From Nitrosospira sp. Nl5 (GTDB lineage: Bacteria; Pseudomonadota; Gammaproteobacteria; Burkholderiales; Nitrosomonadaceae): a DNA stretch of 64,000 bases. The notes beneath the pieces were generated by a model. The model saw only the letters and a list, made by a program, of their open reading frames with translations, was not told where the DNA came from and ran no database searches. The stretch spans positions 1 through 64,000 of the forward strand of contig NZ_FMVQ01000004.1 in NCBI RefSeq assembly GCF_900102495.1, written 5' to 3'. Positions 12,284 to 32,941 of this stretch are shown one piece after another (within the stretch, counting starts at the first letter, position 1; the number at the start of each line of letters is the position of its first letter). A program made the translations under genes and the position numbers.

Positions 12284-12300
12284 GCTGGACAAGCCTTCAA

Positions 12301-12536
12301 CCTAAACCCGGCAGTTGGACAAGGTGGAGTGTGCGGTTTTTGGGGTGCAGGGCAAGGCGCAACGACGCGGAATGGTCATTCCATTCCAAGAAGTTGCAAC
12401 GCCGCCATGTGCCGCAAAAACCGTGCAATCCGCCCTGTAGCGGCCTCACCTGGAAGATGAGTATCAAATAATCCAAAATATCGTTATTAGTCATAATATT
12501 GATCTATTCAATGAGCGACCAACTACCGGATTTAGG
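12301..12536. mobile_element. MITE-A copy 1, 236 bp
   Basis: The element starts CCTAAACCCGGCAGTTG and ends with the inverted counterpart CAACTACCGGATTTAGG, giving imperfect 17-bp terminal inverted repeats. It has the same length as the copy at 26932-27167 and shares its first 145 bases closely, while the inner right third has diverged. The 5-bp flanks are ttcaa on the left and tttaa on the right, so a target duplication with one later mutation is likely. It encodes no transposase; a 65-codon frame on the - strand lies almost entirely inside it, is found in both copies and is probably meaningless. Confidence 0.85.
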
Positions 12537-12541
12537 TTTAA

Positions 12542-12715
12542 CCCAGATAATTCATTAGGCGGCTCCGCGAGCCTACCCGAGTACGGGCGGTCAGTTTGCG
12601 GCCATTTTCGCCGCCTGCCCGGCGTCCATAAACCGGGCTATGGACTTCTCCCAACCGACAAAACTGCCTCGCAACCTGCCTCTCCATCATCTCGCGTCCT
12701 AATGAATTATCTGCG
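12542..12715. mobile_element. MITE-B copy 1, 174 bp, next to MITE-A
   Basis: The element begins CCCAGATAATTCATTAGG and ends CCTAATGAATTATCTGCG, an inverted repeat of 18 bp with one mismatch. It matches the copy at 29692-29865 along its whole length and has the same size. It is flanked by tttaa and ttcaa, and shares the middle flank with MITE-A copy 1, so one element inserted into the target duplication made by the other. It encodes no transposase. Confidence 0.85.
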
Positions 12716-12716
12716 T

Positions 12717-13262
12717 TCAATTTTGGGTTAACTCCGAGGATTGAGGCGACTTCCCGCCTTCGCACAATGCCCGCTCTTCTGCCCGCCGTTTTACCAGTCC
12801 CGGCAATACCTTTCTGCCCGGCCCGTATTTGAATGCTTCGATGCGCTCGCAGGCTTCCGCATATTTCCCGGCATTGATCAGGTCAATCAGATTAGGCGGT
12901 TTGCCGGGCTTTGCCTTGCGGCAGAAGGCCGCAACCCCAATGTTATAAGCCAGGCTCACATATGCTTCATATTCGTGCTGGTATAGCGGCACAGTGACGC
13001 ACTTTTTCACTCCGGCGGCATAGACGCCCTCGACTTCATCGAGCAACCGTACCAGCGAGCGTCCCGGCGTGGTCTTGTCGCCCATCCTGACACCGGCGGT
13101 ACTGCCGAAACCGATGGTCGGCACATCGCCGGGAGCGGGAATGTAGGCCTCATCCTTGTAGCCTTCGTGCACGGCGATCCCGACAAGCGTCGAAGCCGCC
13201 AGCACCATGACAGCAACCGCGGACCGGGCTTGCCGGATTTGTGTTGGAGACGGCTTGATCAT
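12717..13262 (-). CDS. SAR endolysin, GH24 phage lysozyme
   Basis: The 181-residue enzyme hydrolyses peptidoglycan at lysis. A weakly hydrophobic N-terminal segment (residues 14-31, SAVAVMVLAASTLVGIAV) is rich in Ala, Val and Ser and is followed at once by the catalytic part HEGYKDEAYIPAPGDVPTIG with the active-site glutamate at residue 33. This is the layout of signal-arrest-release lysozymes, which reach the periplasm through the Sec system and become active when released from the membrane. The YNIGVAAFC segment is also typical of the family. The TGA stop lies inside the target duplication of the MITE pair that follows. It belongs to a lysis cassette with two membrane proteins and a lipoprotein upstream. 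Confidence 0.9.
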   Translation of the reverse strand: MIKPSPTQIRQARSAVAVMVLAASTLVGIAVHEGYKDEAYIPAPGDVPTIGFGSTAGVRMGDKTTPGRSLVRLLDEVEGVYAAGVKKCVTVPLYQHEYEAYVSLAYNIGVAAFCRKAKPGKPPNLIDLINAGKYAEACERIEAFKYGPGRKVLPGLVKRRAEERALCEGGKSPQSSELTQN

Positions 13263-24801: not shown

Positions 24802-26931
24802 TCAAATATTGTTTCGTGCTTGCTCTATATGAGCCATCAGGATTTTTTCCGTCTTGAGTTTCGCGGTAACCTCGATCCGCTCCTGCTCAATATCCAACTC
24901 GCGCGCCTTTAAATCCAGTTCCACTGATTTGTCAGCTAACCGCGCTTTCAATGCTTCGATTTGCTGCCGCAACTGTGCAACCTGACCTTGATCTTCGCCG
25001 TCTTGCGAGCGCCGGAGGTTAAGTGTTTCCGCTTCAGTCTTTTCCACATCTGCCGCTTTCAGAGCCATTTCCAGTTGGCTCATCTGCTGCTGAATAGCTT
25101 GCTGCTGCATCTGCTGCGCCTGCCCAGCTTCCTCCTGCGGTATTGAGGGAATCATATTGCCCACCTTGCGCAACTGGTCCGCCAACTCATGCCGATTCGG
25201 CACATCGGTTAATTCCAGCATGGCTGGGTAGAGAACAGCCTGATATGCCGGGGGTGCGGCCTGCACAATCTGCGTGAACGCCTGCAACTGCTGCGCCCTG
25301 AAACTCGGCGTGGCGGGTATGTCTTCCAGCACAACCCTGATCTGCGCGGTCTCGATATCGTTCTCGATCACCGGGCCGGAATCCGTCATCACCTCGCGGT
25401 TGAAATACACCGTCTTTTGCTTGTTGCCCTGCCTTACCGCCACAGCTGAGGGTTTGCCCAGCATGTCGTATTTGACGAACGCCAGAAGCTGCTCCCCGAC
25501 CAGGCGCCGGGCATAGCGGAAGTTATCATTGGGCTCGGCCAGTACTGTGGAGCCCTGCTGCACCAGGTTGTTGATGGCAACACCGCTGGTGGCTTGCGTC
25601 GACGCACCCAGCATCGCGCGGTACACGCCGCTCACGGCTTCAATCCTGTGCTTGCGCTCCTCGACCAGCTGAAATACTTGCGCAGCCAGTGCATGTTCCC
25701 GCGTCACCCTGAATCCGCCGGCATTTCTGCGCTGCGAATTCAGCACGGTCATCGACCGCAGACTGCTGATATTGTGCGCAACTTCCTGATACGTGTTCTG
25801 GCTGAGGTCGAGCGCGTCGTTATCCACTTCGACTTTTACCGAATTCAGGACCTCGTACAGCAGAATATCCAGATCGAGGATCTGGTCCTGCGGCCCGCGC
25901 ATATCGCGAATCAGGCCATACGGCGTCCTGCTGCGGTCCTTGCGAAAGCACCAGAAGGGCACATATGGGAAGTTTCCGTGCGGCAACGGGGTCGGGACAT
26001 CCATCAATTTATGCGGCCCCAGCCAGATCGCGACCCGCGTTCGAGGAAGCAGGGATTTCTGCACGTGCACCAGGCCGCTGCCTAGCGCGGCCTGGTGATA
26101 CGGGTTGTCTTCCCGGTATTCAATTGCCTTGCCCTCAGGCAGTACCAGCACAAATGCATCCTCAAAATGCCGGTACCACAACTCGGAGAGGCGAACCATT
26201 CCGGAACTGCGATTAAGATAATCTTCCTGGCTATGTCCCCACGCCTGCTCGATCTCGTACGCCCGCGCCATGCCCGTATCGGAACCTTCGTACACGTCCA
26301 GATTGTTCCATCCGTTCCAGCTGTTGCCGATGAGCTCGGTCTGGTCCGGAAACATTCTTGCAACTTGCGCGCGGTCAACCCATTTATTCCGCCGCAAATA
26401 ACGTGCGTCGGACAAGTCCGGCTCTTTCGATGTCCAGTCCCACCAGATTTCATTGCGATGGATTTCCCGCACGCGGTACGGATACTTGAGCGGATCAAAC
26501 TCGCGTGACACCTCGACCCATCCGACACCCGCGCGGATCATGCTTGAATAGGCATCGGATATGGCCCTATCCGCCCTGGATTCGGTTTCGACCTCTTTAA
26601 TCTTTGCCGAGAGTCCCTCGGCGATTTCGGCTTGCCGCTCATCATCGGCTGTGATCTTGTAATCCGTGCGGCTGCGCGCCTCGATACCCAGCACCGCATT
26701 GATCGTCGGCTTGATGAGATTCGAGTCCTGGGGAGGAATGCCAGCGTCTTTTAAACGCTGGTTTACCTCTACCGATGTCTGCGCACCATCGTAATAGTCG
26801 CAATCGGTATCCGAGTCGAGCCGCCATTTCGGCTGGTTGCGTAGCTCCCGGCTGATGCGGTCGTATGCCTCGATCGATATGTCCGCCCCGATATCCGCCA
26901 ATGTGTCCGCCCCGGCCGAAGAGTCGATCAT
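24802..26931 (-). CDS. phage portal protein, P22 gp1-like, 709 aa
   Basis: The protein forms the DNA-passage ring at the head vertex. It has the family pattern: SIEAYDRISRELRNQPKWR, DSNLIKPTINAVLGIEARSR, RVREIHRNEIWWDWTSKEPD, ARYLRRNKWVDRAQVARMFP, then FPYVPFWCFRKDRSRTPYG and LIRDMRGPQDQILDLDILLY, and a C-terminal coiled coil from about residue 620 to the end. Its natural start is ATG 26931, which is part of the 5-bp duplication made by MITE-A copy 2. An open frame extends upstream into the element. The native ribosome binding site, in the end of the terminase gene, is now 236 bases away, so portal synthesis may be changed. Confidence 0.85.
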   Translation of the reverse strand: MIDSSAGADTLADIGADISIEAYDRISRELRNQPKWRLDSDTDCDYYDGAQTSVEVNQRLKDAGIPPQDSNLIKPTINAVLGIEARSRTDYKITADDERQAEIAEGLSAKIKEVETESRADRAISDAYSSMIRAGVGWVEVSREFDPLKYPYRVREIHRNEIWWDWTSKEPDLSDARYLRRNKWVDRAQVARMFPDQTELIGNSWNGWNNLDVYEGSDTGMARAYEIEQAWGHSQEDYLNRSSGMVRLSELWYRHFEDAFVLVLPEGKAIEYREDNPYHQAALGSGLVHVQKSLLPRTRVAIWLGPHKLMDVPTPLPHGNFPYVPFWCFRKDRSRTPYGLIRDMRGPQDQILDLDILLYEVLNSVKVEVDNDALDLSQNTYQEVAHNISSLRSMTVLNSQRRNAGGFRVTREHALAAQVFQLVEERKHRIEAVSGVYRAMLGASTQATSGVAINNLVQQGSTVLAEPNDNFRYARRLVGEQLLAFVKYDMLGKPSAVAVRQGNKQKTVYFNREVMTDSGPVIENDIETAQIRVVLEDIPATPSFRAQQLQAFTQIVQAAPPAYQAVLYPAMLELTDVPNRHELADQLRKVGNMIPSIPQEEAGQAQQMQQQAIQQQMSQLEMALKAADVEKTEAETLNLRRSQDGEDQGQVAQLRQQIEALKARLADKSVELDLKARELDIEQERIEVTAKLKTEKILMAHIEQARNNI

Positions 26932-27167
26932 CCTAAACCCGGCAGTTGGGCAGGGTGGAGGGTGCGGTTTTTGGGGTGCAGGGCAAGGCGCAACGACGCG
27001 GAATGGTTGTTCCATTCCAAGAAGTTGCAACGCAGCCATGTGCCGCAAAAACCGTGCAATCCGCCCTGTAGCGAACTCACCTTATCGGTGAAGGTCAAGT
27101 GACTCAGGAAGCCTTTGTGGGTCATTGCGCTAAATTAAAAAATGAGCGGTCAATTGCCGGATTTAGG
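26932..27167. mobile_element. MITE-A copy 2, 236 bp, between terminase and portal
   Basis: The element starts CCTAAACCCGGCAGTTG and ends CAATTGCCGGATTTAGG; the 17-bp ends are inverted repeats with two mismatches. It is flanked on both sides by atcat (26927-26931 and 27168-27172), a perfect 5-bp target duplication. On the - strand the duplicated pentamer is ATGAT, which gave the terminase stop (TGA) and the portal start (ATG). Removing the element and one copy restores an ATGA overlap of the two genes. It encodes no transposase. Confidence 0.9.
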
Positions 27168-27168
27168 A

Positions 27169-28422
27169 TCATGCGCGCCAGCCTTTCATGCTGATCCCGC
27201 GCGCGCTGCCGGCGGGCTTATCGTCTTCCGTGGATACGGCAAAATACCTGAAGGCATCCGACGCGTGGCTGTGGTAGTCATGCAACGGCTTTCCGCTCAA
27301 TTGCCTGGAATCAGGATCCACATCGAATCGATAATGCCGCAAGCTCTGCAATCCTTCGGCACACCTCTCGGCATCAAAATAACAACGATTGAATAACGTT
27401 CGCGCGGCATTGATACCGTCGGAAACGGATAGATTCGGCACTATCCTCACCTTGCGTCCCGCGGCGAGCATGATTTCCTCCACGCTGCGGCCCGTCGCCA
27501 GAGTCTTGGCACGGGCGTCGTGCGGCAGCCAATCCGTACCGTACAGGTATGCCTTGTCCTGCAGCACCGAAATATAATGTTGAATGGGCATCTGGTTGTT
27601 GGAGTAATAATCGATTAGCCGGAGCTCGCCGCCGACGGATTGCGCAAACCATATGCTGGTGTTATCGGCCCAGCCCAGATCAAAGAACGTATGCACCAGT
27701 CTCGCCGCATCGTAAGGCACGCTGCATATACGTCCCTCTTCCTGTGCCAGCCTCAACTCCCTGGCGTAGATCGCGCCATCCAGCGTTACCCTGCAATGGC
27801 CTTCCCACACGTTCTGGTAGGCATCGGGATCACGCGCCTTGAGCTCGTCCTTTTCCCGTAGCAGCGTCTCCGGAAACCACGGATTGTCGTTCCAGTTGAT
27901 CTTTACCACCGCTGCATCCGTCGGTGGATTGATGACAAAGCGCCGGTGCGTCTCGTCGGTTTCCAGTTCCGGGTTGTACGTGACCCAGATTTCCGAACCA
28001 TCTTTGCGGATAGTCGGTATGAGCGTTTCCCAACTGGATTTGCTGACGGTCTGCGCTTCCTCCACCCAAACCCGGTCAACGCCCTCGAACGATTTTATTT
28101 TGGTTACATTGTTGCGCAACCCGGCGAATAAGAACTCGGAACCGTTTCTCCCTAAAATGACGTTATTCTGCACTTCGTAAAATGATCGCAGTCCGATAGC
28201 GGCGATCTGGGCTTGCAGCAGGTGATGCACCGACTCGGCAATCGAATTCTGGAACTCGCGTGCGCACAGTATGCGCAGCGGCGTGGCTGCGGCCTGGATC
28301 AGCAAAGCCCTGGCGGCACCCCATGACTTCGCGCCGCCACGCCCCCCGTATAAGATCTTGTATCTTGCAGGTTCGAATAAAAACCGGAGTTTTTGGGGAA
28401 ATTCCGCCTTGTGCGCGGCCAT
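27169..28422 (-). CDS. terminase large subunit (PBSX-type)
   Basis: The 417-residue motor protein packages phage DNA. A Walker A motif GGRGGAKS lies near residue 27, after ARYKILY, and a Walker B-like VDRVWVEEAQ lies near residue 115. The C-terminal nuclease domain has acidic residues in TFFDLGWADNTSIWF and HDYHSHASDAFRYF, as in the RNase H-like family. The pattern SAPS/C, the nucleotide-binding ARE segment (ILCAREFQNSI) and length match the Terminase_3/PBSX family. Its TGA stop is in the duplication of MITE-A copy 2. It follows the small subunit by 32 bases. Confidence 0.9.
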   Translation of the reverse strand: MAAHKAEFPQKLRFLFEPARYKILYGGRGGAKSWGAARALLIQAAATPLRILCAREFQNSIAESVHHLLQAQIAAIGLRSFYEVQNNVILGRNGSEFLFAGLRNNVTKIKSFEGVDRVWVEEAQTVSKSSWETLIPTIRKDGSEIWVTYNPELETDETHRRFVINPPTDAAVVKINWNDNPWFPETLLREKDELKARDPDAYQNVWEGHCRVTLDGAIYARELRLAQEEGRICSVPYDAARLVHTFFDLGWADNTSIWFAQSVGGELRLIDYYSNNQMPIQHYISVLQDKAYLYGTDWLPHDARAKTLATGRSVEEIMLAAGRKVRIVPNLSVSDGINAARTLFNRCYFDAERCAEGLQSLRHYRFDVDPDSRQLSGKPLHDYHSHASDAFRYFAVSTEDDKPAGSARGISMKGWRA

Positions 28423-28454
28423 GCGGCTAGGAAACGCCGGGAAACATGGGGTGA

Positions 28455-28985
28455 TTACTTGGTTGCGGCGCCCGCGTCGGCAGCGGCAGTGGCAACGAAG
28501 GCCACCTCGACCCGGTGCACGACCGACTTGCCGATATCGCCGCTGTCGTTTCCATTCAGTAATTTATCCCCATATTTTTTCGGAGCCAGCCTTGACGCAT
28601 ACCATTTGCGTGCATCGATGCGCAGCTGGGAACGCGCGATAACCTCCCGGTCTATTACCTCACGCCCCTTTTCGTCGGTGTAGGTATCTTTCGACCCGTC
28701 GTCCGAAATTTCAATGATTTCTTCCGCATAGGCGTCGATACAAAGCTCCTTGGCACGCAGGTATTGCCGCATAAGCTCCGCATCGCTCGCCAGCCAATTC
28801 CATAAAACCCGTTGGCTGATGCCGGCCTCGATACACATCGTCCGCGCCGATTTACCAAGCGAGATGCCGGCACAGATTGCATCCAGCAGCTCAGGGGTTT
28901 TGATTGTCGGCGCACCCCTTTTTTTGGCTGCCGGCCCTGCGCTCGCCGTAACTTCCGCCAGCCTCAAGAATTCACGTTCATTCAT
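28455..28985 (-). CDS. terminase small subunit
   Basis: The 176-residue protein has a helix-turn-helix near residues 25-65 (PELLDAICAGISLGKSARTM, then AGISQRVLWNWLASDAEL), a helical region LRAKELCIDAYAEEIIEISD and the motif DREVIARSQLRIDARKWYAS RLAPKKYGDK (space added). This is the typical phage small terminase that recognises pac or cos sites and activates the large subunit. It is the first packaging gene of the operon. Confidence 0.85.
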   Translation of the reverse strand: MNEREFLRLAEVTASAGPAAKKRGAPTIKTPELLDAICAGISLGKSARTMCIEAGISQRVLWNWLASDAELMRQYLRAKELCIDAYAEEIIEISDDGSKDTYTDEKGREVIDREVIARSQLRIDARKWYASRLAPKKYGDKLLNGNDSGDIGKSVVHRVEVAFVATAAADAGAATK

Positions 28986-29018
28986 GATTTAACCTAAAAT
29001 TGAAAAAAAGCAGGTCAA

Positions 29019-29315
29019 TTACCGAAGCACATCACTAGGTTCGACCTTCAGCGGCAAGCTGTTGCATCCCTTTACCGCCGCAAGCAGCTTAATCTCGCAT
29101 GCCGAGCGTTCCTCGATCTCGGTTCTCAGAGCCCGATTGATGGTAAGAACATCGTCCTTCACAGACACGCGATCAATCGCATAGGCTGACTTGCACTCCG
29201 CGGGGGTTTCCACATGGCATAAGACGGCAACCGGTTTTTCGACGACTTGTGTCTGAATGACGGGTTTGCCGGCGCAACCGGCCAAAAAACACATGAATGG
29301 CGCCAATCTAGTCAT
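29019..29315 (-). CDS. o-spanin (Rz1-like lipoprotein)
   Basis: ATG 29315 overlaps the stop of the Rz-like gene by 8 bases, and gives the signal peptide MTRLAPFMCFLAGC with a lipobox (LAGC). The mature part is short, with several Cys residues (VLCHVETPAECKS and SACEIKL) and no long proline run. Outer-membrane spanins join an inner-membrane partner to disrupt the outer membrane at the end of lysis. The overlap with the Rz-like frame is the family's usual layout. A longer form from 29336 adds 7 residues and is less likely. Confidence 0.7.
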   Translation of the reverse strand: MTRLAPFMCFLAGCAGKPVIQTQVVEKPVAVLCHVETPAECKSAYAIDRVSVKDDVLTINRALRTEIEERSACEIKLLAAVKGCNSLPLKVEPSDVLR

Positions 29316-29691
29316 TTTGATGGCGGCTCTGCACATACCTTATTTGCTCGACGGCGAGCGCTTCGCATTGTTTCGCTGGCGCCACCGGCGGAAGAGCGCG
29401 TATTTTTTTAGCATTGTCCGTCCGCTTTGCCGCTGCCGTTGCCGCGCCTTGCATTGCCCTGGCCGCGTTTTTTTCCCTCGCGGCCGTGGTGGCGGTCAGC
29501 GTCTCCATCGCCATGCGCGCGGATTGAATATCGGTAGCGCATTGATCGTTTGCCGCCGATAACACTGCATTATTGGAATTGAGCCGCTGTATCTGCGAGG
29601 CCATGCGCCAGTCGCTCAGCGCAAATCCCCCGCCAAACGCAAGCGCGGCGAGGACGGCAATGACGATTGCGGTAATCGCTGGAGTGATCAT
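29308..29691 (-). CDS. i-spanin (Rz-like)
   Basis: The 127-residue protein has one N-terminal transmembrane segment (ITAIVIAVLAALAFGGGF) and a long periplasmic coiled coil (RMASQIQRLNSNNAVLSAAND onward, and ATAAAKRTDNAKKI), the typical spanin shape. Its ATG (29691-29689) is part of the 5-bp duplication of MITE-B copy 2, so its natural ribosome binding site is now on the far side of the element. It overlaps Rz1 by 8 bases. Confidence 0.75.
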   Translation of the reverse strand: MITPAITAIVIAVLAALAFGGGFALSDWRMASQIQRLNSNNAVLSAANDQCATDIQSARMAMETLTATTAAREKNAARAMQGAATAAAKRTDNAKKIRALPPVAPAKQCEALAVEQIRYVQSRHQND

Positions 29692-29865
29692 CCCAGATAA
29701 TCCATTAGGCGGCTCTGCGAGCCTACCCGAATGCTGACGGTCTGTTTGCGGCCATTTTCGCCGCTTGCCCGGCGTCCATAGACCAGGCTATGGACTTCTT
29801 CCAACCGACAAAACTGTCTCGCAACCTGCCTCGCCATCAACTCGCGTCCTAATGGATTATCTGGG
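29692..29865. mobile_element. MITE-B copy 2, 174 bp, at the start of the i-spanin gene
   Basis: The 18-bp ends are perfect inverted repeats: CCCAGATAATCCATTAGG and its complement. The flanks are atcat at 29687-29691 and atcat at 29866-29870, a perfect 5-bp duplication. On the - strand this is ATGAT and includes the i-spanin start codon. It encodes no transposase; a frame of about 60 codons crosses it and shares the segment RQVARQFCRL with the frame in copy 1, but looks like a by-product of the repeat. Confidence 0.9.
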
Positions 29866-29887
29866 ATCATTTGCGTTGCCTATGAAA

Positions 29888-30054
29888 AATCCGCCCGGAT
29901 CGGGCGAGAAAGCCCGCAAAAGCAGGCAGCCATAAAAAAAACCGCAAGCGGCAGGCGGTCGTAAAAAAACCCGCACTCGGCGGGTTTTGGAATACCGGAC
30001 AAAAAAATACCCGCTTAAATGGGCGGGCAATAAAAAACCCGCCTGGGCGGGTTC
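29888..30054 (-). terminator. six tandem intrinsic terminators at the head of the late operon
   Basis: Six GC stems lie end to end, each with its T run on the - strand: at about 30037-30052 (CCCGCC/GGCGGG), 30010-30027 (CCCGC/GCGGG), 29967-29987 (CCCGC/GCGGG), 29941-29961 (CCGC/GCGG), 29911-29928 (GC-rich, short T run) and 29890-29907 (CGCCC/GGGCG). Four have runs of six to eight T. All are placed to stop leftward transcription just before it reaches the phage genes. Transcription from the promoter at 30101-30128 would meet the first stem after about 40 bases. Confidence 0.8.
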
Positions 30055-30100
30055 GGTATAAACATTGTCCTGCGCATAGAAATGCACAATATGGGTTCGC

Positions 30101-30128
30101 ATTATATAGCGTTACCGGCGTTTGTCAA
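30101..30128 (-). promoter_or_regulatory. consensus sigma-70 promoter reading into the prophage
   Basis: On the - strand the sequence reads TTGACA (30128-30123), a 16-base spacer and TATAAT (30106-30101). Both hexamers match the consensus exactly. The start of transcription would be near 30094, 40 bases before the first terminator. It is the only strong promoter I could find for the late operon. Confidence 0.8.
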
Positions 30129-30178
30129 GGGATTTGTTGCCAGCTTCTAAACAATGCCAATCCGGCCCTTTTCCTGCA

Positions 30179-30206
30179 TTGACTTCTCTTTGACGAATGC
30201 TATAAA
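30179..30206 (+). promoter_or_regulatory. probable sigma-70 promoter of the exported-protein gene
   Basis: TTGACT at 30179-30184, a 16-base spacer and TATAAA at 30201-30206 give a good promoter about 85 bases upstream of the next + strand gene. A second TATAAT-like box lies at about 30231. The phage promoter reads in the opposite direction 50 bases to the left, so the two are divergent. Confidence 0.6.
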
Positions 30207-30295
30207 TAATTGCGGAGAAGCGGGCTGGTATATAATCGTTTGCAACAGACCATGAGTTTGATTCCTGGGTATTTTTTGAATAAACTGAAAGCGCA

Positions 30296-30868
30296 ATGAC
30301 CAAACATTCCGCATTGCTCATCGTACTCGGCTTGGCCGCTTATTCAGGTCATTCAGGTTACATCTCGGCGCAGGAAGTCAACTACGCGGATGCAAACATG
30401 GGCTTCGGTCCGGTGGGGATGACTCAGGATATGGCGCAGAACAGCCCGTTCCTCTCGCCGGGAGCAGCCCCGGCGCATGGTCATTCTCCCCAATACCCCG
30501 GAAACAGCTTCCCTCCCGCCCGTTCATCCGGCTATCCCGGCGGCCCGCTGGTGGTGCTGCCTGTGCCGTTACCCGCGAATGGCATGTCCGGATTGAATAG
30601 CGGGTCGGGGTTCCCCGGCAGTTACATGCCGCAGGGCACGCCTCTCCACCGATTCAATGGTTATATCGTGTGCGATCCCCCTGACCTGGCTGCGGAGGCA
30701 ACGACAGGGGCAACCCCGAAGCGCGTGGTCAAGATCACAACAACACGGTCCCTTTCCGCGCCCGGTCATTCGCAACCATGCCCTGTCTACACGGTAAACG
30801 GGGAGATCCAGAGGCAGAAAGACTATACAACGGGCACCACACCTCCGGTTCCCAATGCACTGCAATGA
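30296..30868 (+). CDS. exported Pro/Gly-rich protein of unknown function, 190 aa
   Basis: A signal peptide (MTKHSALLIVLGLAAYSGHS, cleavage probably near ISAQE) precedes a disordered region rich in Pro, Gly, Ser and Asn (residues 40-115), and a C-terminal region with two Cys residues (YIVCDPPDL, SQPCPVYTVNGE). The Cys pair may form a disulfide. I do not recognise a family. It is the first chromosomal gene next to the prophage. The next gene codes for a lipoprotein on the same strand. Confidence 0.65.
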   Translation: MTKHSALLIVLGLAAYSGHSGYISAQEVNYADANMGFGPVGMTQDMAQNSPFLSPGAAPAHGHSPQYPGNSFPPARSSGYPGGPLVVLPVPLPANGMSGLNSGSGFPGSYMPQGTPLHRFNGYIVCDPPDLAAEATTGATPKRVVKITTTRSLSAPGHSQPCPVYTVNGEIQRQKDYTTGTTPPVPNALQ

Positions 30869-30930
30869 TCCGGGTGACAAACAAGCGTCAGACGCCTGCC
30901 ATAGCACATAGCAAAATAAGGAGAGCGGCA

Positions 30931-31344
30931 ATGACTTCCGCCACGGGGATAGTTCCCGAAATAATGAAAGGTCTTCGCGCAACATGTCTTATCGCCAGCA
31001 TGGCCGGCCTTCTGGTCCTGTCCGGCTGCGCCAGCTTCCAGATCACGGTGCCGGATTCGGATCCTATCCAGCCCAGGGGATATACCGAGGGGTATCTGAA
31101 GAAGACCATGCATGCCTACTTCTGGGGACTGGTGCTTGATCCGCAGGTTCTCTCGGCCGAATGCGAGGGCCAGGGCATTAATGACGTTATCATCTATCGC
31201 ACTCTGGCGCATGACCTCGCGGGTGTTGTTACCCTTGGTCTATGGATGCCAACGGAAGTTTATTTCCGGTGCAAGGCGCCCCCAACGAGACCCGGGATAC
31301 TTCCGTCGCCTTCTAAAAGACCGCGATCACGGCAGCTTTCCTGA
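30931..31344 (+). CDS. Bor-like outer-membrane lipoprotein, 137 aa
   Basis: ATG 30931 follows AAGGAGAG by 6 bases, which is much better than the GTG- or ATG-starts upstream. The product has an N-terminal signal with the lipobox VLSGC (LVLSGCASFQITV) and then a region with TEGYLKKTMHAYFWGLV and AECEGQGINDVIIYRTLAHD. The pattern resembles Bor/YhfL-type lipoproteins. It may be a serum-resistance-like envelope protein, but I do not assign a role. Confidence 0.65.
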   Translation: MTSATGIVPEIMKGLRATCLIASMAGLLVLSGCASFQITVPDSDPIQPRGYTEGYLKKTMHAYFWGLVLDPQVLSAECEGQGINDVIIYRTLAHDLAGVVTLGLWMPTEVYFRCKAPPTRPGILPSPSKRPRSRQLS

Positions 31345-31375
31345 GACCGATTCTGAAAGAATAAGGAAATAAATC

Positions 31376-32941
31376 ATGCCCAATGGAGACGGACGCAGTT
31401 TCTTCAGGCCGCAGACGCTCGAAACCGGACGACACCAGTCCTATGAACAGGCGCTGGAGGGAGAATACGCCTTTGATATCGACCGGGGCGAGAAGCCGCC
31501 CTTCGAAACCTACAACAACGCGACCGGGGAATTGCAGGGCATCATCCAGGCCTGTATTCAGGATGGCGCGTCGCTGCGCGCGCACGGCAGCCTGTGGTCG
31601 CTGAGCACGGTCGCTGTTACGAATGGCCGTCTGATCGACACCACTGCTCTGCGCCTGGCGTTCGAGGTGCCGCCGGACTTGACCGACGCAGCGTATGCCG
31701 GAGACGCCGCGAAACTGCGCTTCGTCGAGTGCGGCAACTCCGTTGCCGCGCTGAACGACTATCTCTTTGCCGCCGGCCTGTCGATCAAGGGTTGCGGCTC
31801 CAACAACGGCCAGACCATCGCCGGCGCGCTATCGACAGGGACGCATGGTAGCGCCTACCGATTCGGCGCCATGCAGGAAATGGTGGTTGGCTTGCACCTC
31901 ATCACCGGACCGGACAAGCACGTCTATCTCGAACGGAAGTCTTCCCCAGTCATGCTGCCCGCCTTCGCCGAAAGCATCGGCGCCGATTTCATACAGGATG
32001 ACACGCTGTTCAACGCCGCCCTCGTGAGCTTCGGCTCTTTTGGGATCCTGCACGGCATCATGATCGAAACGCGCGAGCTGTTCCTCCTCAATGCGGTGCG
32101 CTTCCGGCATCCCTACGATGCCACGCTCAAGGCGGCGATCGCCGCTTGCGACCCGACCCTGGTTCCCCTGCCGGCGGAGGCCAACGCCGTGCCCAGGGAT
32201 AAGCCCTATCACTTCGAGATTTTTTTCAATCCCAACGAGGGCACGCCTCCCGCCGAGGCGATCGTTCTCATCATATATGAAGGACCCTACGACCCGGACA
32301 ACTACACGCCCCCGGAGTGGAACGCCGGCGAGCCCGGGCTGGGTGCCTCGGGGCTCGATGTCATGGGAACGCTGGTGGGCAGGATACCCAGCCCCCTCAA
32401 CAAGCTGGCTGTGCCCTTCCTGAACAGCCAGGTGAATCAGGAATTCGCGCCCTACTTCAAGCAAGCCCTTATCCGCGACCTCTTCCGTGGCGAGAAGACT
32501 TTGGGCAAGACGCTGGCCTGCGGGGTCGGAATGCCGGTGGCGCGCGCGGTCGAAGCAATGGAAATTGCTTTCAAGGCATATGAGGATTCAAATGTGGTCC
32601 TGCCGGTGATCCTCTCGCACCGTTTCGTCAAAGGCACCAGGGCGTCGCTGGGATTCACCCGCTTCGACACGACCGCGATCATGGAGCTGGATGCGGTGAA
32701 CACCCCGGAAACACGCGCGTTCTACAGTCGGGTCTGGAATGATCTGGATGCGGCGGGAATCCCCTTTACGCTGCACTGGGGCAAATACAATTCCTTCCTG
32801 ACGCCGGAGCGTGTACGCAACCGCTATGGTGATGCCGCCGTCGATCAGTGGATTGCGAGCCGCGAAACCCTGCTGGAAAACGCGGCGGTGAGGCAAGCCT
32901 TTACCAACGCCTTCATGGCCGATCTGGGACTGGCGACATAA
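31376..32941 (+). CDS. FAD-linked oxidase, D-arabinono-lactone oxidase-like, 521 aa
   Basis: The protein has an FAD-binding PCMH domain at about residues 45-230: ELQGIIQACIQDGASLRAHG, LWSLSTVAVTNGRLIDTTAL, RFVECGNSVAALNDYLFAAG and LSIKGCGSNNGQTIAGALST GTHGSAYRFG (space added), where the GT-x-G-x(2)-H-G pattern holds the flavin. The C-terminal part has the substrate-domain pattern of sugar-lactone oxidases (ALO family), ending with PFTLHWGKYNSFLTPERVRN. It oxidises an aldonolactone or a related substrate using FAD; the natural substrate is not known. It has no signal peptide. Confidence 0.8.
   Translation: MPNGDGRSFFRPQTLETGRHQSYEQALEGEYAFDIDRGEKPPFETYNNATGELQGIIQACIQDGASLRAHGSLWSLSTVAVTNGRLIDTTALRLAFEVPPDLTDAAYAGDAAKLRFVECGNSVAALNDYLFAAGLSIKGCGSNNGQTIAGALSTGTHGSAYRFGAMQEMVVGLHLITGPDKHVYLERKSSPVMLPAFAESIGADFIQDDTLFNAALVSFGSFGILHGIMIETRELFLLNAVRFRHPYDATLKAAIAACDPTLVPLPAEANAVPRDKPYHFEIFFNPNEGTPPAEAIVLIIYEGPYDPDNYTPPEWNAGEPGLGASGLDVMGTLVGRIPSPLNKLAVPFLNSQVNQEFAPYFKQALIRDLFRGEKTLGKTLACGVGMPVARAVEAMEIAFKAYEDSNVVLPVILSHRFVKGTRASLGFTRFDTTAIMELDAVNTPETRAFYSRVWNDLDAAGIPFTLHWGKYNSFLTPERVRNRYGDAAVDQWIASRETLLENAAVRQAFTNAFMADLGLAT

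Follow-up and report, generated by a model that had tools for sequence, protein, structure and literature searches.

The junction of the terL and P22-type portal genes in a prophage of Nitrosospira sp. Nl5 holds a 236-bp miniature inverted-repeat transposable element (MITE), assigned here to a family named MITE A. The window analyzed in this work is the whole 64,000-nt stretch at positions 1 to 64,000 of contig NZ_FMVQ01000004.1. The best explanation, which we hold with moderate confidence, is that the MITE entered a 4-nt ATGA overlap of the two genes, that the insert stays translated, and that the portal gene is coupled to terL through a relay of short open reading frames (ORFs).

The element spans positions 26932-27167 and is read with the genes on the minus strand (ends CCTAAAYCCGGCARTTG; at this junction, CCTAAACCCGGCAGTTG / CAATTGCCGGATTTAGG). 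Perfect 5-bp flanks, ATCAT, are found at 26927-26931 and 27168-27172, and on the coding (minus) strand they read ATGAT. The copy on the terL side (27168-27172) contains the terL TGA (27171-27169) together with the original ATG (27172-27170), and the copy on the portal side (26927-26931) contains the portal ATG (26931-26929) and a TGA (26930-26928) closing a 65-codon ORF; deletion of MITE A with one flank restores GCGCATGATCG. The duplication thus rebuilds the stop of terL (27169-28422, minus strand; 417 aa; Pfam Terminase_3, E 1.7e-40), and the portal gene (24802-26931, minus strand; Pfam P22_portal, E 1.1e-106) encodes 709 aa from its rebuilt ATG. A Shine-Dalgarno-like AAAGG (27182-27186, minus strand) lies in the 3' end of terL, 9 nt upstream of the terL-side ATG. 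Relatives carry an A/G-rich stretch at this position, and AAAGG presumably served as the native binding site of the portal gene before the insertion, after which it stands before the terL-side ATG and not before the portal ATG. Four in-frame starts precede the portal gene on the minus strand, namely ATGs at 27015 and 27039 (28 and 36 codons upstream) and TTGs at 27030 and 27048 (33 and 39 codons upstream). The preliminary description of this DNA had claimed a 236-bp element with ATCAT on both sides, a stop and a start rebuilt by the duplicated ATGAT, a portal gene deprived of its native binding site and an in-frame extension of up to 39 codons. All of this was borne out, both in the coordinates and in the exact flanks, and the three shorter in-frame starts are to be added to the longest one.

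Features of a MITE are present, i.e., a length of 236 bp with matching terminal ends, a target duplication fixed at 5 bp (32 of the 66 copies have it exact, see below) and many copies, with 41 matches in the 3.03-Mb genome of the host, many of which are partial. Since the duplication is exact, and matches occur both in this number in the own genome and in 41 of the 125 genomes of the family, the arrangement is more than chance.

Empty sites were found in relatives. Portal homologues are present in all 23 genomes of the genus and in two others of the family (25/125), and 28 portal loci were read, i.e., the own one, 25 with terL beside the portal gene and two, from another genus, without a terL match. 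At 17 of the 25 other terL-portal junctions of the genus the genes overlap by ATGA, and 11 of these 17 read ATGAT; a TAATG or TGATG overlap is present at five, and in the remaining three (L027, L028, and L030) 178-275 nt separate the terL stop from the aligned portal start, a spacer that is possibly a small gene. In none of the 25 was a MITE end detected at the terL stop. The counter-case named in the preliminary description, an element-free relative in which the genes do not overlap at ATGA, therefore did not carry, and the element-free ATGA overlaps support the evolutionary reading that such an overlap was split here and that its duplication rebuilt both the stop and the start.

To define the target, near-full-length copies were taken from the best-scoring matches listed, so diverged copies are under-sampled. 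The first sample comprised 66 MITE A copies. The second contained 46 further copies recovered by the core motif, and what is said of it holds among the matches listed: of at least 117 core-motif places, 54 had no recognised end pair, 17 of the other 63 were repeats, and 46 were kept. WTNAW was found in all 32 exact duplications of the first sample (in at least four of the 34 copies without an exact duplication the edges were misplaced) and in all 28 of the second, which takes in elements with other ends (CCTAGAAA, CCTAAAAA). In control DNA this motif makes up 7548 of 419916 pentamers, or 7548 of the 70441 pentamers in which at least four letters are A/T. In every WTNAW one of the two strands includes TAA or TGA; an insertion on a gene end of this kind therefore places a stop at either edge of the element, and a start as well where the site is ATGAW. 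The stop is on the element strand read with the portal gene here in 45 of the 60 exact duplications (P 1.3e-4), and among the imperfect ones four G-centred flanks point the opposite way. The core of the element occurs with three end types (CCTAAATC, CCTAAAAA, and CCTAGAAA) in Nitrosomonadales, Gallionellales and other records, among the matches listed.

The position of the copies relative to genes was measured by frames open for 195 nt, not by gene calls. Nine copies of the first sample were excluded (one with a short flank, two without WTNAW on either side, and six judged to be shared insertions), which left 57, and these were compared with 6544 WTNAW control sites from 21 stretches of four genomes, 876 sites near element ends being masked (six of the seven stretches of one control genome were chosen near known elements, with the surroundings masked). 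Copies were enriched at the ends of open frames (19/57 versus 605/6544, 9.2%) and at stop/start overlaps (7/57 versus 56/6544, 0.9%; without the window copy 6/56, P 1.2e-5), and were depleted in the interior of open frames (8/57 versus 3188/6544, 49%). The excess at stops was repeated in the second sample (10/38 versus 378/3559, P 0.006), from which five copies without the motif and three with a short flank had been removed.

Of the six overlap sites other than the phage junction, four clearly belong to pairs of genes. The pairs are a gene for a Peptidase_M90 protein, which we take to be mtfA, followed by the glucokinase gene glk; fliH-fliI (FliI named by eye); a gene for a Fer2_4 (ferredoxin) protein with one for an FAD oxidoreductase (the latter named by eye); and a pair encoding a LamG-domain protein and a GNAT protein, 14 kb from a portal gene in genome G107. 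The two remaining sites (L093 and L115) were distrusted, the upstream ORFs having only about 43 and 50 aa. Seven mtfA-glk loci were available: two carry the element, four are element-free, and one has no upstream gene in its stretch, so that all four element-free relatives with both genes overlap at ATGA. Among six other ferredoxin-FAD loci, four have an ATGA overlap, one TAATG, and one a two-base gap after TAA. At fliH-fliI, the element occurs in G114; G110 has a shortened copy of it, 113 bp long, and what may be remnants are present in G113 and G094. In 18 other relatives the junctions vary between ATGA or TGATG overlaps and spacers that reach about 60 nt. Sequence comparison thus presents two cellular operons, mtfA-glk and ferredoxin-FAD, as cases of the same event beside relatives with empty sites. 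As the target motif and these other operons give the same outcome, the terL-portal insertion is not a one-off.

Across the insert at the phage junction, a chain of about 240 nt can be followed on the minus strand, in which the duplicated ATG opens 16 codons that end at an internal ATGA (27122-27172, with TGA), and from this ATGA 65 codons lead to the ATGA of the portal gene (26928-27125, with TGA), the last stop overlapping the portal ATG by the same 4-nt arrangement. These ORFs form a possible reinitiation relay, and since an ORF within the element now overlaps the portal start from upstream, coupling may persist. According to excerpts of PMC10666635, reinitiation in Escherichia coli drops by 80-90% or to nothing when 38 nt lie between the genes, and the final 15 nt of the upstream gene are enough for it; direct coupling over 240 nt would therefore be unlikely, and stepwise coupling possible. 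When ATGAT is taken as the flank on both sides, 38 of the 66 copies can be crossed by a strict stop/start chain, among them all seven at overlaps, versus 31 of the 59 others (P 0.018). In the second sample, 7 of the 18 copies with the window's type of ends have the strict relay, and the open stretch reaching the downstream stop is 25-124 codons long. Neither a coding gene in the 65-codon ORF (no Pfam match, nor any codon-position signal or amino-acid conservation, see below) nor a structured-RNA family was accepted, the lone Rfam match in 26000-28500 lying outside the element and far under the gathering score. The longest other listed ORF overlapping MITE A has 84 aa and extends into the flanks.

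Whether the long frame is kept open was assessed on a tree of 102 MITE A copies, with 200 simulations under two expectations (the same sites with a random base, or random sites). New stops in the long frame numbered 14, versus 29.8 expected for the same sites and 40.5 for random sites, and none of the 200 simulations was as low under either expectation; in four other frames the count was close to or higher than expected. A simpler simulation of new stops (9 versus 49) was set aside in favour of the tree counts, because it is inflated by shared ancestry. The amino acids of the long frame drift, the ratio of nonsynonymous to synonymous changes (N/S) relative to simulation being 1.00, and no codon-position signal was found in the MITE A copies. 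On these sequence statistics, selection at the level of the family for a translated insert is plausible.

A second element of the same prophage, MITE B, is 174 bp long, unrelated to MITE A, and located on the minus strand at 29692-29865 (ends CCCAGATAATYCATTAGG). Its ends differ from those of MITE A and its duplication, ATCAT at 29687-29691 and 29866-29870, is the same. A 60-codon ORF (29688-29870, minus strand) opens at the ATG on its upstream side and runs through it; the closing TGA overlaps the start codon of an Rz-like gene (29308-29691, minus strand), which matches Rz-like spanins weakly (E 8e-5). We compared 41 copies, the best-scoring of a longer match list (40 of them retrieved from that list), in which 20 of the 22 exact duplications contain WTNAW and 23 copies are crossable, 22 of these in a single ORF. 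New stops in the long frame of MITE B numbered 3, versus 10.3 and 9.1, with N/S of 0.93. After two copies without the motif were dropped, 9 of 39 were located at ends of open frames, an enrichment, and 2 of 39 at stop/start overlaps, a count which is weak because the upstream ORF at the window site looks spurious (poly-T-rich spacer). The MITE B RNA folds far better than shuffled sequences (z -7.59). Elsewhere in the window, a second MITE A copy (12301-12536, plus strand; flanks TTCAA / TTTAA) is directly followed by a second MITE B copy (12542-12715; flanks TTTAA / TTCAA), so that within 12296-12720 the two abut with flanks TTCAA / TTTAA / TTCAA, as if one had used the target duplication of the other.

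Taken in sequence, the favoured reading runs as follows. A non-autonomous transposon entered the ATGA overlap of terL and the portal gene; ribosomes finishing terL would start again at the duplicated ATG, close to the native AAAGG, cross MITE A in two steps and reinitiate at the portal ATG. The portal gene would remain coupled, and the insert would not be an untranslated gap exposed to Rho polarity. We are less sure of a further step, in which copies with the long frame open may survive better in operons; it would explain why new stops are scarce despite the drift of amino acids. A broader proposal, that at least two unrelated MITE families of ammonia oxidisers have been selected for translational transparency, with a target that copies a stop, and at ATGA overlaps also a start, to both sides, and an internal frame kept stop-free but unconstrained in its amino acids, across which ribosomes would be handed within an operon, is put forward tentatively.

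Several results weigh against the relay and against selection. One other MITE A frame is low in new stops by the same-sites measure (22 versus 30.5, P 0.005; 28.0 by random sites), the first 42 nt, where the relay runs in another frame, show no scarcity (4 versus 5.2 and 4.7), and a tree-free test of distinct mutations gave 8 versus 11.7 (P 0.083). The plus-strand through-frame of MITE B is not depleted (6 versus 7.3 and 8.4), and the lowest MITE B N/S (0.66) belongs to a different minus frame and is unexplained. Because stop scarcity is missing both from the first segment of the relay and from the plus strand of MITE B, our confidence in the best explanation and in the broader proposal was slightly lowered. 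Furthermore, a strict relay arose by chance in 877 of 20000 shuffled elements, and the copies share ancestry; only 9 of the 46 second-sample copies have such a relay; the overlap excess is absent from the second sample (1/38 versus 39/3559); and the control sites come from four genomes, the copies from more. Finally, the MITE A RNA folds strongly (z -6.65 versus shuffles), which could hinder ribosomes or itself constrain the sequence. An ordinary tolerated MITE, placed by target choice and by purging inside genes, with a stop and a start rebuilt by the mere arithmetic of the duplication, frames open by the chance of their ancestor and a portal gene translated at a reduced level from its ATG, is a serious possibility, if a minority one in our estimate. 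The WTNAW motif and the avoidance of genes could explain its position, and the relays of shuffled elements, the missing codon-position signal, the non-significant distinct-mutation test and the ordinary stop count of the first relay segment would all suit it. It does not, however, predict the scarcity of long-frame stops on the tree, nor a similar result in the unrelated MITE B.

Two other explanations seem improbable. The portal protein might have a new N-terminus, 28-39 residues longer, from a start at 27048, 27039, 27030 or 27015, as in the in-frame MITE fusions of Rickettsia; the frame is open, and in-frame element fusions are known (PMC10969869 and PMC2229807). However, no Shine-Dalgarno-like site was seen by eye ahead of these starts, the rebuilt ATG sits in an exact overlap, and the 65-codon frame shows no amino-acid conservation (the extension frame being judged only within that frame comparison). 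Slightly less probable still is a decaying prophage damaged by the insertion, its portal gene no longer expressed. Two different MITEs in the same phage region would fit decay; the portal and terL ORFs, however, are intact, and their ratios of nonsynonymous to synonymous substitution rates (dN/dS) against seven relatives are low (0.06-0.12 and 0.04-0.08, respectively, mostly reflecting the time before the insertion), and portal homologues occur in 23 of 23 genus genomes.

The phage locus (window 24802-32941) also includes terS (28455-28985; Pfam Sf6_terminase), on the minus strand like terL and the portal gene, and an FAD-oxidase gene (31376-32941), a full-length homologue of which lies about 4-8 kb from the portal gene in 13 other genomes, with fragments in three more. 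Because of this recurrent neighbour, the presence of the portal gene throughout the genus and its low dN/dS, the locus looks fixed, perhaps domesticated or gene-transfer-agent-like.

If the relay and its selection are real, they would explain how short repeats enter tight operons without silencing downstream genes, and would offer a signature for searching other bacterial repeats, i.e., a stop-poor, amino-acid-neutral frame combined with a stop-bearing target motif. The relatives with empty sites are natural test pairs for reinitiation chains.

As regards mobilization, five pairs of MITE ends 0.5-4 kb apart were found in the genome stretches examined, and the three inspected contained no transposase, enclosing host genes instead (by eye, response regulator, peptidase-like, and fmt-like). 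Near the high-coordinate end of L162 (G100), a MITE-like end stands directly before an fmt-like gene (by eye) that may start at the TTG within a TTGAA flank. PF13701 (DDE_Tnp_1_4) scored above the cut-off in 3 of the 23 genus genomes, with no match in the own genome. Among 12 PF13701 loci checked for matching ends, only L046 came close, with a pair about 140 bp apart, and no matching transposase was found; at L041, the longest hit, near a contig end, no end-like match with at most three mismatches was present.

Transposons of the IS1380/ISEcp1 type have CC... ends and 5-bp AT-rich duplications, both of which are shared by MITE A; unlike them, MITE A was not accompanied by a transposase with matching ends in the 12 PF13701 loci. 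Correia/NEMIS, ERIC, RUP, and BOX elements are likewise short and transposase-free, with inverted ends, target duplication, stable hairpin RNA and many copies. Some bacterial MITEs contain ORFs and are transcribed together with the operons that hold them (PMC2229807 and PMC3049150); every frame is closed by stops in RUP and in the 155-bp form of Correia (PMC2229807, in part), BOX elements supply stop codons or expressed ORFs (PMC3049150, in part), and an extract of PMC6382973 gives MITEAba12 stops in all six frames. Unlike these known bacterial MITEs, MITE A has a stop-bearing 5-bp WTNAW target and sits at gene stops, and its long frame gains few new stops without conservation of a peptide. 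MITE ORFs and in-frame gene fusions are described above all from Rickettsia (passages of PMC10969869 and PMC2229807), where nearly half of the reported palindromic elements are in-frame fusions within genes and each encodes a conserved peptide (PMC10969869, partial text). These elements are palindromic with a translated frame spanning them, and MITE A is likewise palindromic with a predicted spanning frame; unlike them, it is rare inside long frames (the 8/57 copies versus 3188/6544 controls) and has no conserved peptide (N/S 1.00, no codon-phase signal). Among the matches listed from the open-licence literature, nothing was found on MITEs that rebuild stop/start overlaps or bear reinitiation chains. 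Termination-reinitiation at ATGA overlaps uses the same 4-nt overlap that recurs at every step of the MITE A chain; unlike in ordinary ATGA-coupled genes, the overlaps here are supplied by a transposon, three of them in 241 nt.

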